This document shows, in pieces, positions 12,612 to 17,566 of a stretch of DNA of 36,661 nucleotides. The stretch spans positions 1 to 36,661 of the forward strand of contig PLDO01000395.1 in NCBI GenBank assembly GCA_003136215.1, read 5' to 3'. Under the pieces are notes generated by a model. It was not told where the DNA came from, did no database searches, and saw only the letters and a program-made list of their open reading frames with translations. Position 1 is the first letter of the stretch; each line of letters starts with the position of its first letter. The stretch is from Bryobacterales bacterium. GTDB lineage: Bacteria; Acidobacteriota; Terriglobia; Bryobacterales; Bryobacteraceae. Both the position numbers and the translations under genes were made by a program.

Positions 12612-13789
12612 GCCACTTTGGCCCTCAGGTTCGCCACCCCCGCCGCCACGCGGGTGTCCACTACGTCGAAAGCAATGGTGTCGTCCAGCCAGTCGTGGCT
12701 CGAACCATCGGCATTCTGCGTGGCCACGGTCAGCGTATATTGCTGCGGCGTCAACCAGCAGGCCAGCTGGAAATCCACTTCCAGTTCGTCCCCCGCCTGC
12801 AAATCGCCCAGCGGCATCTTCTCGATCCGCGTGTTGGTGCCGTAGACGTCCATGCCGATGCGCGTGCGCAGCAGGATGCCCACCATCGGGTCGTGCGTGG
12901 CCGCATGGAAACGCGAACGCACGCGGATGGTGATGGGCTCGCCGCTCGCCAGGGAAGTGACCGGCTCGCCCCGCGCATTGAGGATCTCCGCGCTCAGAAT
13001 TTCGCTGGTGCCATCGCCGTGCCGGAAGCTGCCGCGGACGCGGTCTTCCTTCTTGTTGCGCGCCTGCTGCCGCTCCAGCACCAGCCCGATGTAGCGGTTG
13101 ATCACGTCGTTGGGCGTGCCTTGCGCTTCAATGCGGCCGTGGAGCAGCAGGATGGCGCGGTCGCTGAGCGCTTTCACCAGCCCCAGATCGTGGGATACGA
13201 ACAGCACCGTAATCTTGCGGGCGCGCAGTTCCTCGAACTTGCGCACGCAGCGATTGGCGAACACGGCATCGCCCACTGCCAGGGCTTCATCCACAATCAG
13301 AATTTCGGGATCGACGTGAATCGCCGTGGAGAACGCCAGGCGCACGTACATGCCGCTGGAGTATTCCTTGACCGGGCGCTCGATGAACTCGCCGATTTCG
13401 GCAAAGGCTTCGATGGAAGGCATCGCCTTGTCGATCTCGCCGCGGCTCAGCCCCATGATTTCGCCGTTGAGGTAGACGTTCTCCCGGCCCGAGAATTCCG
13501 GATTGAAGCCGGCGCCGAGCTCCAGCAGCGCGGCGATGCGCCCGCGCGTCACCACCCGCCCCGTGGTGGGCTGCAGGATCCCGCTGACGATTTGCAGCAG
13601 CGTGCTCTTGCCGCATCCGTTGGGGCCCACCAGGCTCAGCACCTCGCCCTTTTCCACCTCGAAGCCGATATCCTTAAGCGCCCAGAAATCGCTGTGGCGG
13701 GCGCCGGCGCCGGGCAGCATTTCGCGCAAGCGGTCGCTGGGACGGCGGTATAAACGGTACAGCTTGGAGACGTTCTGAACCAGGACCAA
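12593..13789 (-). CDS. ABC transporter ATP-binding protein of polysaccharide export type with C-terminal Wzt-like domain
   Basis: Walker A GPNGCGKST, signature KEYSSGMYVRLAF, Walker B EILIVDEALAVGD, then about 170 aa of beta-rich C-terminal domain. Start codon TTG; exact start uncertain. Confidence 0.9.
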   Translation of the reverse strand: MVLVQNVSKLYRLYRRPSDRLREMLPGAGARHSDFWALKDIGFEVEKGEVLSLVGPNGCGKSTLLQIVSGILQPTTGRVVTRGRIAALLELGAGFNPEFSGRENVYLNGEIMGLSRGEIDKAMPSIEAFAEIGEFIERPVKEYSSGMYVRLAFSTAIHVDPEILIVDEALAVGDAVFANRCVRKFEELRARKITVLFVSHDLGLVKALSDRAILLLHGRIEAQGTPNDVINRYIGLVLERQQARNKKEDRVRGSFRHGDGTSEILSAEILNARGEPVTSLASGEPITIRVRSRFHAATHDPMVGILLRTRIGMDVYGTNTRIEKMPLGDLQAGDELEVDFQLACWLTPQQYTLTVATQNADGSSHDWLDDTIAFDVVDTRVAAGVANLRAKVAWRVSR

Positions 13790-13796
13790 CCTTCAG

Positions 13797-13847
13797 TGTA
13801 GCCCGTGGCATAAGGCTCCGCCTTGTGCATCCGAGCGAAGCTCGGAC
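13797..13847 (+). repeat. Two-hairpin dispersed palindromic repeat, copy 1
   Basis: Core GGCATAAGGCTCCGCCTTGTGCATCCGAGCG (31 nt) identical to the reverse complement of 34445-34475; hairpins GCATAAGGC/GCCTTGTGC and CCGAGC-GAA-GCTCGG. Confidence 0.85.
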
Positions 13848-13856
13848 ATTTTTCGC

Positions 13857-13888
13857 TTGACAAATTCTATAGTTCAATTATTATTGAA
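13857..13888 (+). promoter_or_regulatory. Promoter and putative ArsR operator of the ars operon
   Basis: TTGACA (13857-13862), 16 nt, TATTAT (13879-13884); perfect inverted repeat TTCAAT-TATT-ATTGAA (13873-13888) over the -10. Confidence 0.75.
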
Positions 13889-13890
13889 AT

Positions 13891-14043
13891 ATGGAACAAG
13901 CGCGACAGTGGAGCCTGCTCGATGAATTCGAAGAGGACGCGCCCATCTCTGAAGAAGCGGCCCAAAGGGTGCGCGCCCACGCCCCTGCCGGCTGCCTCAT
14001 CTGTGCCTTCGAAGAGGCGGAAGGCGAGTGGGACGACGAATGA
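13891..14043 (+). CDS. 50-aa acidic CxxC micro-protein heading the ars operon
   Basis: MEQARQWSLLDEFEEDAPISEEAAQRVRAHAPAGCLICAFEEAEGEWDDE; stop overlaps the arsR start as ATGA; placed directly downstream of the -10 box. Below the length cutoff of the supplied ORF track. Confidence 0.65.
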   Translation: MEQARQWSLLDEFEEDAPISEEAAQRVRAHAPAGCLICAFEEAEGEWDDE

Positions 14044-14399
14044 AGAAAGACCCGGAGCAGATTACGCGCTACGCCGACATGTTCGCCGCCATGGGAACGG
14101 AGTCGCGCCTGCGCATCATGCAACTTCTGCTTTCCGCCCATCCCGACGGCATGGTGGTGGGGGAGATCCAGGAAGAACTGGGAGTTTCGGCCTCTAACCT
14201 GTCGCACCATCTGGACAAACTCAAGAACGAGGAACTGATCGCCGTGGAGCGCCAGGGCACCTTTCTGCGCTGCACGGCAAACACCCGGACGTTGCAGGAG
14301 TTGCTCGGCTTCCTCTATGCCGAATGTTGCACGCGGAATCAGGCAGTCAAACCGGAAACCATCGTGACCGTCAAGCAATCATCGAAGAATAAGGAGTAA
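14040..14399 (+). CDS. arsR: ArsR-family metalloregulator
   Basis: MKKDPEQITRYADMFAAMGTESRLRIMQLLL...SASNLSHHLDKLKNEELI winged helix; C-terminal Cys pair AECCTRN; adjacent to arsM. Confidence 0.9.
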   Translation: MKKDPEQITRYADMFAAMGTESRLRIMQLLLSAHPDGMVVGEIQEELGVSASNLSHHLDKLKNEELIAVERQGTFLRCTANTRTLQELLGFLYAECCTRNQAVKPETIVTVKQSSKNKE

Positions 14400-14405
14400 G
14401 TCATC

Positions 14406-15230
14406 ATGCCAACCGAAAGCATCACCGACGTTGTAAAAGAAAAGTACGGACAGGCCGCGTTGCGCGTCGTCGCCGGAGGCTCCAGTTCCTGTTGCGGAGG
14501 CGCTCCCGCCGACGCCCACTGCGCCGACCCGATCACCGGTAACCTGTACGGCGCGGAACTCGGCGAGCTGCCCGACACCGCGGTCCTCGCCAGCCTGGGC
14601 TGCGGCAACCCGACCGCCCTGGCCCAATTGAATCCCGGCGAAACGGTTCTCGATCTCGGTTCCGGCGGTGGCATCGACGTGCTGCTGTCGGCGCGCCGCG
14701 TCGGCCCCACCGGCATGGCCTACGGCCTCGACATGACCGACGAGATGCTGGCCCTCGCCAATTCCAACAAAGCCAAGGCCGGCGTGGAAAACGTGCAGTT
14801 CCTGAAGGGACAGATCGAGAGCATTCCGCTGCCCGACGCCTCCGTCGATGTCATCATCTCCAACTGCGTCATTAACCTCTCGGCCGATAAGGACCGCGTC
14901 CTGGCCGAAGCCTTCCGCGTGCTCAAGCCCGGCGGGCGCTTCGCCGTCTCGGACGTAGTGACCCGCGGCGAAATTCCCGCCGAGATCCGCCAGCATGTGC
15001 TTCTCTGGGTGGGCTGTCTGGCCGGCGCCCTCGACGAAGCCGACTACCGCGCCAAATTGTCCGCGGCCGGCTTTGAAGGCGTCGATGTCGAGCCGACCCG
15101 CATCTATCGCGTCGCCGATGCGCGCGCCTTCCTGTCCGGCAAAGGGCTGGACGTGGACGCGATTGCGCCGCTGGTGGACGAGAAGTTCTTCAGTGCCTTT
15201 ATCCGCGCCCGCAAACCCGCCACGGCTTGA
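14406..15230 (+). CDS. arsM: Arsenite S-adenosylmethionine methyltransferase
   Basis: SCCGG N-terminus, LGCGNPTALAQLNPGETVLDLGSGGGIDVLLSARRVGPTG, IISNCVINLSADKDRVLAEAFRVLKPGGRFAVSDVV. Confidence 0.95.
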   Translation: MPTESITDVVKEKYGQAALRVVAGGSSSCCGGAPADAHCADPITGNLYGAELGELPDTAVLASLGCGNPTALAQLNPGETVLDLGSGGGIDVLLSARRVGPTGMAYGLDMTDEMLALANSNKAKAGVENVQFLKGQIESIPLPDASVDVIISNCVINLSADKDRVLAEAFRVLKPGGRFAVSDVVTRGEIPAEIRQHVLLWVGCLAGALDEADYRAKLSAAGFEGVDVEPTRIYRVADARAFLSGKGLDVDAIAPLVDEKFFSAFIRARKPATA

Positions 15231-15243
15231 GGCTCACCAGGAC

Positions 15244-16200
15244 CTATTCAAGCGGTGGGCGTGGCTGGTACTGCCTGCGCCGCGCTCCCCGCGGCGCTTG
15301 CTTGGCAATTTGGAGCCCCGCGAATACCACATAGCGGTGAGAGCACCGGTGGCAGCGGCAGAGGGGCAAACCCCACCTCTCCACCATCGCTTCGAACCGC
15401 GAGCGGGCGCGCGAAGCGTAAATCGCGGTGCTATCGCACTTCGGGCACTTGCCGCCGGCGGGCTGCGCTTCGGCCCTTGGCTTAGGCTCGGGATGGCCGA
15501 AGCTGTCCGGCCCCAGCGGGATTACCGGCGCCGCGCCGCTCTCACCGGCTGGAAGGCTTTCCTCGATGCCTGCTTCCGCCGGCTCGTTCGGGAGACCGGC
15601 ATCGGGAGTCTCGGGAGGCGAGTCCTGGGAATCTGCCATCGGCGCCGCCGCTACCGGCGGCGGCGTCTGTACCAGGAAGGGCGTACGCGGCCCGGCAGCC
15701 TTCTGCCCGGACGGAGGGTTCGCTTGATACTGCCGCAGCAGCAAGCCGAGCAGGCGGATCTCCGTTGCTACCTGCTGCATGGTTAGCGCGGTTCCCTCCG
15801 CGCGGCAGTGGAGTGCCAGCTTGATGGCTGCCGGCCGCAGGCGCGGAGGCCCGGTGAGCGCTCCGCATAGCCGGTTATCCGCCGCCCCCGGCGACGCGGG
15901 CGGCGCCTCCAGCATTAACATCTCGTAAAACATGGCGCCGAAGGCCCGCGTGTCGGCCTCTGGCGCGGCATCGTCCCGGTTCTGCAACGGCGCCAGGTGA
16001 GCGCCCGATTCCGTCATGAGGACGCTGCCGGCGGTCAGTTTTCCGTAGGCGAGGTTTTGCTGATGGAGATCCCACAGTTCCGTTGCAACTTCGTTTGCGC
16101 AACGCAGCACTTCCGGCAGCGAAAGAGGTCCAGAAGCCAACAAGTCGGCCAGCGTTCCCGGCTGGCCACCGTCTCCGGATCGTGGGGCTCTCTCTGTCAA
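15244..16200 (-). CDS. Kinase-like (predicted inactive) protein with C-terminal zinc ribbon
   Basis: Similar layout to the neighbouring kinase-like gene (TLADLLASGPLSLPEVLRCANEVATELWDLHQQNLAYGKLTAGSVLM...FGAMFYEML); CPKC...CRCHRC near the C-terminus. Confidence 0.7.
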   Translation of the reverse strand: MTERAPRSGDGGQPGTLADLLASGPLSLPEVLRCANEVATELWDLHQQNLAYGKLTAGSVLMTESGAHLAPLQNRDDAAPEADTRAFGAMFYEMLMLEAPPASPGAADNRLCGALTGPPRLRPAAIKLALHCRAEGTALTMQQVATEIRLLGLLLRQYQANPPSGQKAAGPRTPFLVQTPPPVAAAPMADSQDSPPETPDAGLPNEPAEAGIEESLPAGESGAAPVIPLGPDSFGHPEPKPRAEAQPAGGKCPKCDSTAIYASRARSRFEAMVERWGLPLCRCHRCSHRYVVFAGLQIAKQAPRGARRRQYQPRPPLE

Positions 16201-16261
16201 TCGTTACGCCACCTTCCTGGTGGGCGCTGGCATTACTTGCTTCCCCGCGCCGGCGTCCGCC

Positions 16262-17566
16262 TTAGTTGACCGCAAGACTCGAGCGGTCGCCGGCTTCGGC
16301 CTGATCGAGCACTGCCGTTTGCAGCGATTCCAACGCTTCCACCACCCGCTCTACCAGATCGTCCGTCTGCGACATCGCCGTCCTCGCCGATTCGATCGAC
16401 GTGCCTTGCGTCTTGACGTTCTGTTCCAGATCCACCAGGTCCGCGGCGATGTTGTTCTCGAACTGCGCGCTGTGCCGGCGGATCTCTTCCACCGTCCGCT
16501 CGATCCCCGCGATCCGCGCGTTCAGCACTTCGAAGCCTCGGTCCACCCGCGCGAATATCGCCTCGGTGGCAGCTTCGTCGAGCGCGCCCCCCGTGCGTTC
16601 CATGGCCTGCTGGTGATTCGCCGCCAGTTCGCTCTGCATGGCCGCTACCAGCAGCTTCAGGGAACTCAACCCTTCGTTTGCCAAGCGGTTGATTTCAGAT
16701 GTACTCGTCTCCTGGCTTCGCTGCCGCGCCTCCATCCGTGCCTCCATCTGCTGCATTTCCGCCCGCACCGCCCCATCCGCCGCGCTCGCCGAGCGGAGCA
16801 TTTCCGTAACGCTCGTCTCCTGGTCGCGCAGCCGCGCCCCCATCCGTGCCTCAATCTGCTGCATTTCCGCCTGCACAGCCGCCGCATCCGCCGCGTTTGC
16901 CGAGCGGTGCATTTCCGCAACGCTTGTCTCCTGGTCGCGCAGGCGTGCCTCCATCCGTGCCTCAATCTGCTGCAGTTCCGCCCGGATGGCCGCCGTATCC
17001 GCCGCTGCGTCGCGCCGTGGCGCCACCGGCGCACCCGCGTCGGAGCGCCGCATCGCCACGCTCAGCAGCTTCAACTCCATCATGATTTTTTGCATGCGCT
17101 GGCTGCGCGCTTCCGGGTTCTTGTTCAGGCACGGACCCACCAGCCGGTCCACCGTCGGGCTCCCCGACGCGGGCGCCGGCGTCTCCTGGAGGTTGGCCGC
17201 CAGCGTGATGCGGCTGTCGCCCTCGAAGGCCCTACGTCCGGTGATCATCTCAAACAGTATGGCGCCGAAGCCAAAGACGTCGCTCCTGGCGTCGGCCGCG
17301 CGCCCCTGCACCACTTCCGGAGCCGTGTACGGCGTAATGGCACCGCTCGATCCCTCGGGAGCGGGCAGCAACTCCACGCCTCCCGCCACCAACACGAGGT
17401 TTGACGGAGTGACCGCCCCATGCGCCTTTCCCGCATCGTGCAGTTTGCCCAGGCATTCCGCTAACTGCATCGCATACCGCAATGCCTCCGCTATCGGCAG
17501 CCGCCCTTCGGCCAGTCGCTGGGCCAGCGTCTGTTTATCGCTCGCTATCATGGTTTCGTCGCTCAT
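16262..17566 (-). CDS. Kinase-like (predicted inactive) protein with repetitive coiled-coil region
   Basis: LHDAGKAHGAVTPSNLVLV, YTAPEVVQGRAADARSDVFGFGAILFEMITGRRAFEG resemble Ser/Thr kinase C-lobe; no Gly loop/Lys N-lobe, no DFG; long helical repeats follow. Confidence 0.78.
   Translation of the reverse strand: MSDETMIASDKQTLAQRLAEGRLPIAEALRYAMQLAECLGKLHDAGKAHGAVTPSNLVLVAGGVELLPAPEGSSGAITPYTAPEVVQGRAADARSDVFGFGAILFEMITGRRAFEGDSRITLAANLQETPAPASGSPTVDRLVGPCLNKNPEARSQRMQKIMMELKLLSVAMRRSDAGAPVAPRRDAAADTAAIRAELQQIEARMEARLRDQETSVAEMHRSANAADAAAVQAEMQQIEARMGARLRDQETSVTEMLRSASAADGAVRAEMQQMEARMEARQRSQETSTSEINRLANEGLSSLKLLVAAMQSELAANHQQAMERTGGALDEAATEAIFARVDRGFEVLNARIAGIERTVEEIRRHSAQFENNIAADLVDLEQNVKTQGTSIESARTAMSQTDDLVERVVEALESLQTAVLDQAEAGDRSSLAVN
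16674..17006 (-). repeat. Three coding tandem repeats of 36-37 codons
   Basis: Anchor (t/c)ccatccgtgcct at 16731, 16839 and 16950 (spacings 108 and 111 bp); protein unit AxxxAEMQQIEARMxARxRxQETSxxEMxRxA. Confidence 0.85.

Follow-up and report, generated by a model that had tools for sequence, protein, structure and literature searches.

How does translation begin on an arsR-arsM operon whose first reading frame opens 6 nt behind the -10 box, and what is the purpose of the small CxxC protein that this frame encodes? The locus lies in a stretch of 36,661 nucleotides from a Bryobacterales bacterium (contig PLDO01000395.1), which is referred to here as the window. The comparison with related genomes suggests that this is probably a combined promoter and operator, in which the operator carries a leaderless start codon that is coupled to arsR in an arsR-arsM operon.

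Layout of the locus

The features of the locus are the following:

13857 to 13862, forward strand: -35 hexamer TTGACA (consensus scan, 11 of 12 matches together with the -10 hexamer; kept in relatives)
13865 to 13896, no strand assigned: probable ArsR operator, a 32-bp inverted repeat, TTCTATAGTTC-N10-GAAATATGGAA, overlapping the promoter and the start codon; ArsR would bind here
13879 to 13884, forward strand: -10 hexamer TATTAT, 6 nt ahead of the ATG at 13891, with a spacer of 16 to the -35 hexamer
13891, forward strand: predicted transcription start, the A of the ATG (from the -10 spacing; the geometry of acuR, mapped by 5′ RACE, is alike, PMC3017554)
13891 to 14043, forward strand: micro-ORF of 50 aa, acidic, with a CLIC motif, first gene of the operon (homologues and purifying selection)
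14040 to 14043, forward strand: ATGA overlap of the micro-ORF stop and the arsR start (read from the sequence; junctions compared among relatives)
14040 to 14399, forward strand: arsR, 119 aa, ArsR/SmtB repressor with an ECC pair (Pfam HTH_20/HTH_5, NCBIfam HTH_metalloreg; nearest solved structure 6j05, ArsR)
14391 to 14396, forward strand: Shine-Dalgarno-like AAGGAG ahead of arsM (read off the sequence)
14406 to 15230, forward strand: arsM, 274 aa, arsenite methyltransferase (NCBIfam NF008823, 351.6 bits against a cut-off of 263)

The preliminary description of this DNA had proposed most of these elements, and its outline stands. The coordinates and the consensus scan agree with a TTGACA-16-TATTAT promoter ending 6 nt before the ATG; the 50-aa frame is acidic as claimed (computed pI of 4.05, charge of -12); the ATGA overlap is where it was placed; and Pfam and NCBIfam both identify the downstream genes as arsR and arsM.

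The promoter is the sole promoter-like site found by the consensus scan on both strands of 13000-16500, where shuffled sequences give 0.4. The operon must have its own promoter, since its upstream neighbour is a divergent gene for an ABC-transporter ATPase. The first T of TATTAT lies 12 nt before the ATG, which is the spacing of a leaderless gene, and the 6 nt between the -10 hexamer and the ATG (TGAAAT) neither contain a Shine-Dalgarno sequence nor leave room for one. A strong Shine-Dalgarno sequence is also absent before arsR, as read from the window. Immediately 5′ of the -35 hexamer, at 13830-13846, there is a terminator-like hairpin, TCCGAGCGAAGCTCGGA, which is a dispersed palindrome with 75 exact matches in the assembly versus 0 for the reversed control; it is also found upstream of arsR in another genome (G008, locus L006). 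Downstream of the operon, two genes occupy the minus strand at 15244-17566. The product of the farther one (16262-17566) has a protein-kinase-like domain by Pfam and coiled-coil-like repeats, and for the nearer one (15244-16200) no Pfam match above the cut-off was found.

An operator that carries the start codon

The preliminary description had not remarked on the 32-bp inverted repeat at 13865-13896, which encloses both the -10 box and the ATG at 13891. The upstream regions of arsR were compared at 110 loci from the family Bryobacteraceae, to which a few genomes from its order and class were added. The repeat, in the form TTCNATANTTC-N10-GAANTATNGAA and counted as present at a minimum of 14 of 18 matching positions, was found at 95 of these loci versus 1 of 550 shuffles. 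The copy in the window is the only one in its own genome, even when up to 3 mismatches are allowed. The variable base of the outer arm covaries between the two arms (complementary in 46 of 94 cases versus 27.7 ± 4.1 expected), as would be expected for the operator of a dimer. These patterns make it very probable that the repeat is the ArsR operator. With G as the variable base, the right arm reads TATGGAA and contains ATG GAA, that is, Met-Glu; an ATG occupies this position in 41 of the 95 repeats. An operator-encoded Met-Glu fits the ME start of many first ORFs and of the ArsR proteins predicted to be leaderless.

Leaderless starts across the family

Among the 80 loci with good promoters, an ATG stands exactly 6 nt after the -10 hexamer in 35, and each of the remaining offsets between 2 and 14 occurs in at most 7 loci; these counts come from related loci and overstate their independence. 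In 21 of the 35 cases the ATG is in frame with arsR, which would itself be leaderless, and in 14 it opens another ORF. Most of the relatives bearing the ATG thus start arsR itself at the operator, a point that had also gone unremarked. Of the 88 loci where the promoter is fair, 39 lack any start codon at a distance of 4-9 nt downstream of the -10 hexamer, and the family as a whole is therefore not uniformly leaderless. The leaderless initiation that had been proposed for the micro-protein is well supported by comparison, but it belongs to the shared promoter-operator and not to the micro-protein, since arsR itself begins there in most ATG-bearing relatives.

A transcription start farther upstream, giving a message with a leader in which the distance between the -10 box and the ATG is a by-product of the operator position, is unlikely. 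Such a message would suit the many relatives that have no start codon just after the -10 hexamer, and the start site in the window is a prediction from the -10 spacing; against it stand the lack of a second promoter-like site in 13000-16500, the recurrence of the exact spacing in 35 loci, and the TGAAAT linker, which offers a ribosome no Shine-Dalgarno sequence.

Coupling of the first ORF to arsR

The first ORFs other than arsR are 5-66 codons long. Twelve of 15 (the 14 above and that of G438) have their stop -4, -1, or 0 nucleotides from where arsR starts, compared with 4.6 expected when the intervening bases are shuffled. Because this null accepts the reading frame as it stands, a choice that favours short ORFs, and because the loci are related to one another, the excess is indicative. 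In two close relatives of the window, the congeners G003 and G008, the ORF is reduced to 21 and 7 codons, respectively, and has lost the CxxC; even so, its stop continues to overlap the start of arsR or to lie directly beside it. As judged from these sequences, the junction outlasts the peptide. The translational coupling suggested in the preliminary description is well supported by these comparisons and by the ATGA retained in G002, a genome of the same genus; its association with the CxxC protein is looser, as the junction is kept without the motif in two relatives. In G020 (L022), a different ORF of 61 codons without CxxC (MKRRPSAEGDEIVQ...) fills the leaderless first slot and ends 7 nt before arsR. 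The arsR tree is built from few columns, and many of its forks are unresolved; on it, the CxxC form occurs in the genus of the window, in a group formed by G016, G248, and G438, and, as an analogue, in G493. At loci with enough sequence, the next gene after arsR is almost always arsM.

With no more than about 50 codons and a TGA that overlaps the next start, the micro-ORF corresponds by its sequence to the RTGA type described in mycobacteria, where attenuation has been proposed for cysteine-rich leaderless upstream ORFs (PMC4633059). An attenuator responsive to cysteine or arsenic, in which the progress of the ribosome over the Cys codons would set downstream expression, could be built from a leaderless first ORF with Cys codons and an RTGA junction. 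Nonetheless, it is very unlikely here: the Cys codons number only two, the fold of the RNA is not unusual, and no terminator-like site, which an attenuator would need, was found between the micro-ORF and arsM.

The micro-ORF as a gene

The closest homologue of the micro-protein, of 46 aa and 76% identical, is found in G002 with the same promoter, spacing, frame, and ATGA junction. Over 46 codons, the two sequences differ at 8, 4, and 23 sites in codon positions 1, 2, and 3, respectively (Fisher p = 6e-6). The resulting pN is 0.12 and pS is 0.78, an estimate from this one pair, and the other two frames have pN above pS. The preliminary description had named a dN/dS near 1 as the outcome that would speak against it, and the reading frame is conserved instead; four more genomes of the family also have a homologue just ahead of arsR, where it had proposed to check synteny. 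Judged by its pattern of substitution, the micro-ORF is a real gene under purifying selection.

Further members, each immediately 5′ of arsR, occur in G016 and G248 (both CLLC) and in G438 and G443 (both CFLC). Two of them are recovered independently of position: the G248 member by a profile built without it (E = 5e-10) and the G443 member likewise (1e-14). A tblastn search with the window protein also backs the G248 record (L053). The CxxC and the acidic tail are retained across genera; the G438 member, with five Cys and a pI of 6.2, is not acidic overall, and its tail is. In G443 the arsR gene may be broken, as its frame meets a stop as early as about 55 residues beyond the anchor.

The family is sparse. 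Homologues were found in few of the 237 genomes of the family search and in none of 395 other genomes sampled across the phylum. A search of 61 genomes with the single sequence gave a clear match in G002 only, and the wider family was reached through arsR synteny and profiles. Neither the 50-aa protein nor its profile matched anything in Pfam, NCBIfam, PHROGs, or PDB, and the AlphaFold2 model has two helices at low confidence (pLDDT of 63.5). No link was seen between the micro-ORF and an efflux gene: an ORF that by eye resembles ACR3 lies downstream of arsM in G016, which has the micro-ORF, and in G006, which does not.

Several candidates were set aside. The CLYC ORF at the same place in G493 is not significantly similar (profile E = 6) and may be of independent origin. 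A relative of this ORF in G448 (L077) reads ATC at the usual site of the ATG and CLYW where G493 has CLYC, and lacks both the start codon and the second Cys. The weak profile matches elsewhere in the class (L038-L051) were, where inspected, unlike family members, and L054 and L055 were rejected because of their unrelated genomic contexts. An acidic 42-aa CVLC ORF at 1486-1614 of L037 (G036:C14) is family-like, although it has a leader and lies outside an ars context; it is an unconfirmed candidate.

That the micro-ORF is a chance open frame behind an operator-borne ATG is highly improbable. It is short, absent from most relatives, and unmatched in the libraries, as a chance frame would be, but neither the bias among codon positions nor the homologues found by profile in other genera would be expected of one. 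A more credible alternative, which may apply although we do not favour it, is that the micro-ORF only delivers ribosomes to arsR in cis, the peptide being inactive and its acidic tail a consequence of Shine-Dalgarno-like GAGGAG codons. This agrees with the persistence of the junction in the shrunken ORFs of G003 and G008, with coupled ORFs of 5-10 codons at other loci, and with the GAGGAGG ahead of arsR in G016 and G248. What it does not account for is the selection on the protein between the window and G002, the retention of CxxC and tail across genera, and the presence of the tail in the window and G002, where a strong Shine-Dalgarno sequence is absent. Taken at the level of sequence, the function that seems constant is a leaderless entry for ribosomes with coupling to arsR, and the CxxC protein appears as an optional, selected extra.

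The regulator and its possible inducer

The window ArsR has the winged helix-turn-helix of its family (PF01022 and NF033788, both above cut-off). It shares the ArsR/SmtB family with AfArsR (PDB 6j05), and its C-terminal Cys pair aligns with the CC of that protein. In contrast, the position of the third AfArsR cysteine (Cys102) is Gln in the window, so that the three-Cys As(III) sensor is incomplete. The CC is present in the ArsR of 108 of 109 relatives; 2 carry a Cys among the 7 residues that follow it, and most have an additional Cys closer to the C-terminus. SpArsR, another ArsR/SmtB protein in which the third Cys is likewise absent, has been described as responsive to MAs(III) but not to As(III), and MAs(III) requires two thiol ligands (PMC11868830).

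Proposed mechanism

In the preferred reading, ArsR would repress its own promoter by binding to the inverted repeat. Once a trivalent arsenical induces the operon, RNA polymerase would begin the transcript on the A of the ATG or on a neighbouring base, and ribosomes would load straight onto the operator-borne AUG. The acidic CxxC protein would be made first; ribosomes would stop at the TGA of the ATGA overlap and then re-initiate on arsR, and arsM would be translated from its own Shine-Dalgarno-like sequence. What stays constant in this design would be a promoter that is at once operator and leaderless AUG. At some loci arsR would be fused to that AUG, and at others a first ORF would couple the two. 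As an optional occupant of the first slot, the CxxC protein would be held by selection in some lineages, most visibly on the CxxC. Being missing from most relatives, it is not a core part of arsenic resistance.

The protein would most likely work in trans, with trivalent or methylated arsenicals as its target or, alternatively, the thiol state of ArsR or ArsM. Our best guess, a tentative one drawn from the operon context and the two Cys, is that it binds trivalent (methyl)arsenicals. The preliminary description had offered As(III) binding or a redox or adaptor role, each of which is likewise conjectural. MAs(III) is a plausible ligand since it takes two thiols and is a product or intermediate of ArsM, and a two-thiol protein precedes arsR-arsM here. 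It is equally speculative that proteins of about 45-66 aa form a new CxxC family in Bryobacteraceae, translated first from leaderless arsR-arsM messages, that binds the trivalent methylarsenical produced by ArsM or tunes ArsR. If binding of trivalent arsenicals were true, the protein would be a new part of arsenic resistance or detoxification.

Comparison with known systems

Each ingredient of this locus has precedents. The acuR-acuI-dddL operon of Rhodobacter sphaeroides likewise has an autorepressor, a TATTAT -10 box, and an operator that overlaps the promoter, and 5′ RACE places the start of the acuR transcript exactly on the AUG (PMC3017554). It differs in that its repressor is of the TetR family and is itself the first gene, and the part of that paper drawn on here reports no small coupled protein. 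Other leaderless autorepressors already known are TetR of Tn1721 and lambda cI (cited in PMC3017554), and CvkR (PMC9938897). The RTGA-coupled leaderless small proteins of mycobacteria are alike in that a first ORF of 5-50 codons ends in a TGA overlapping the next start, some are Cys-rich and conserved, and the coupling outlives the sequence; on the other hand, they belong to Actinobacteria, and the portion of that study used here describes neither an ArsR operator with a start codon nor an ars operon (PMC4633059). Within the same phylum, a survey of three acidobacterial genomes predicted 13.3% of genes to be leaderless on average, with a -10-like TA signal about 12 bp ahead of the start codon; it is a genome-wide prediction, and an ars operon or a small protein is not discussed in the part consulted (PMC3160421). 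Neither an operator-borne leaderless start nor a CxxC family in the first slot was found in titles and abstracts of the open-access literature. As far as searched, two elements are thus new: the placement of the leaderless start codon within an arm of the ArsR operator, seen in many family members, and a conserved CxxC family in the first slot. If this reading is true, a single stretch of DNA serves as promoter, repressor operator, and translation start, and the palindrome dictates the first codons. Within the family, arsR may itself begin at the leaderless start, be coupled to it by a short ORF, or be coupled to it by a small protein under selection, and this set of loci makes the origin of a gene from a first-position ORF directly testable.
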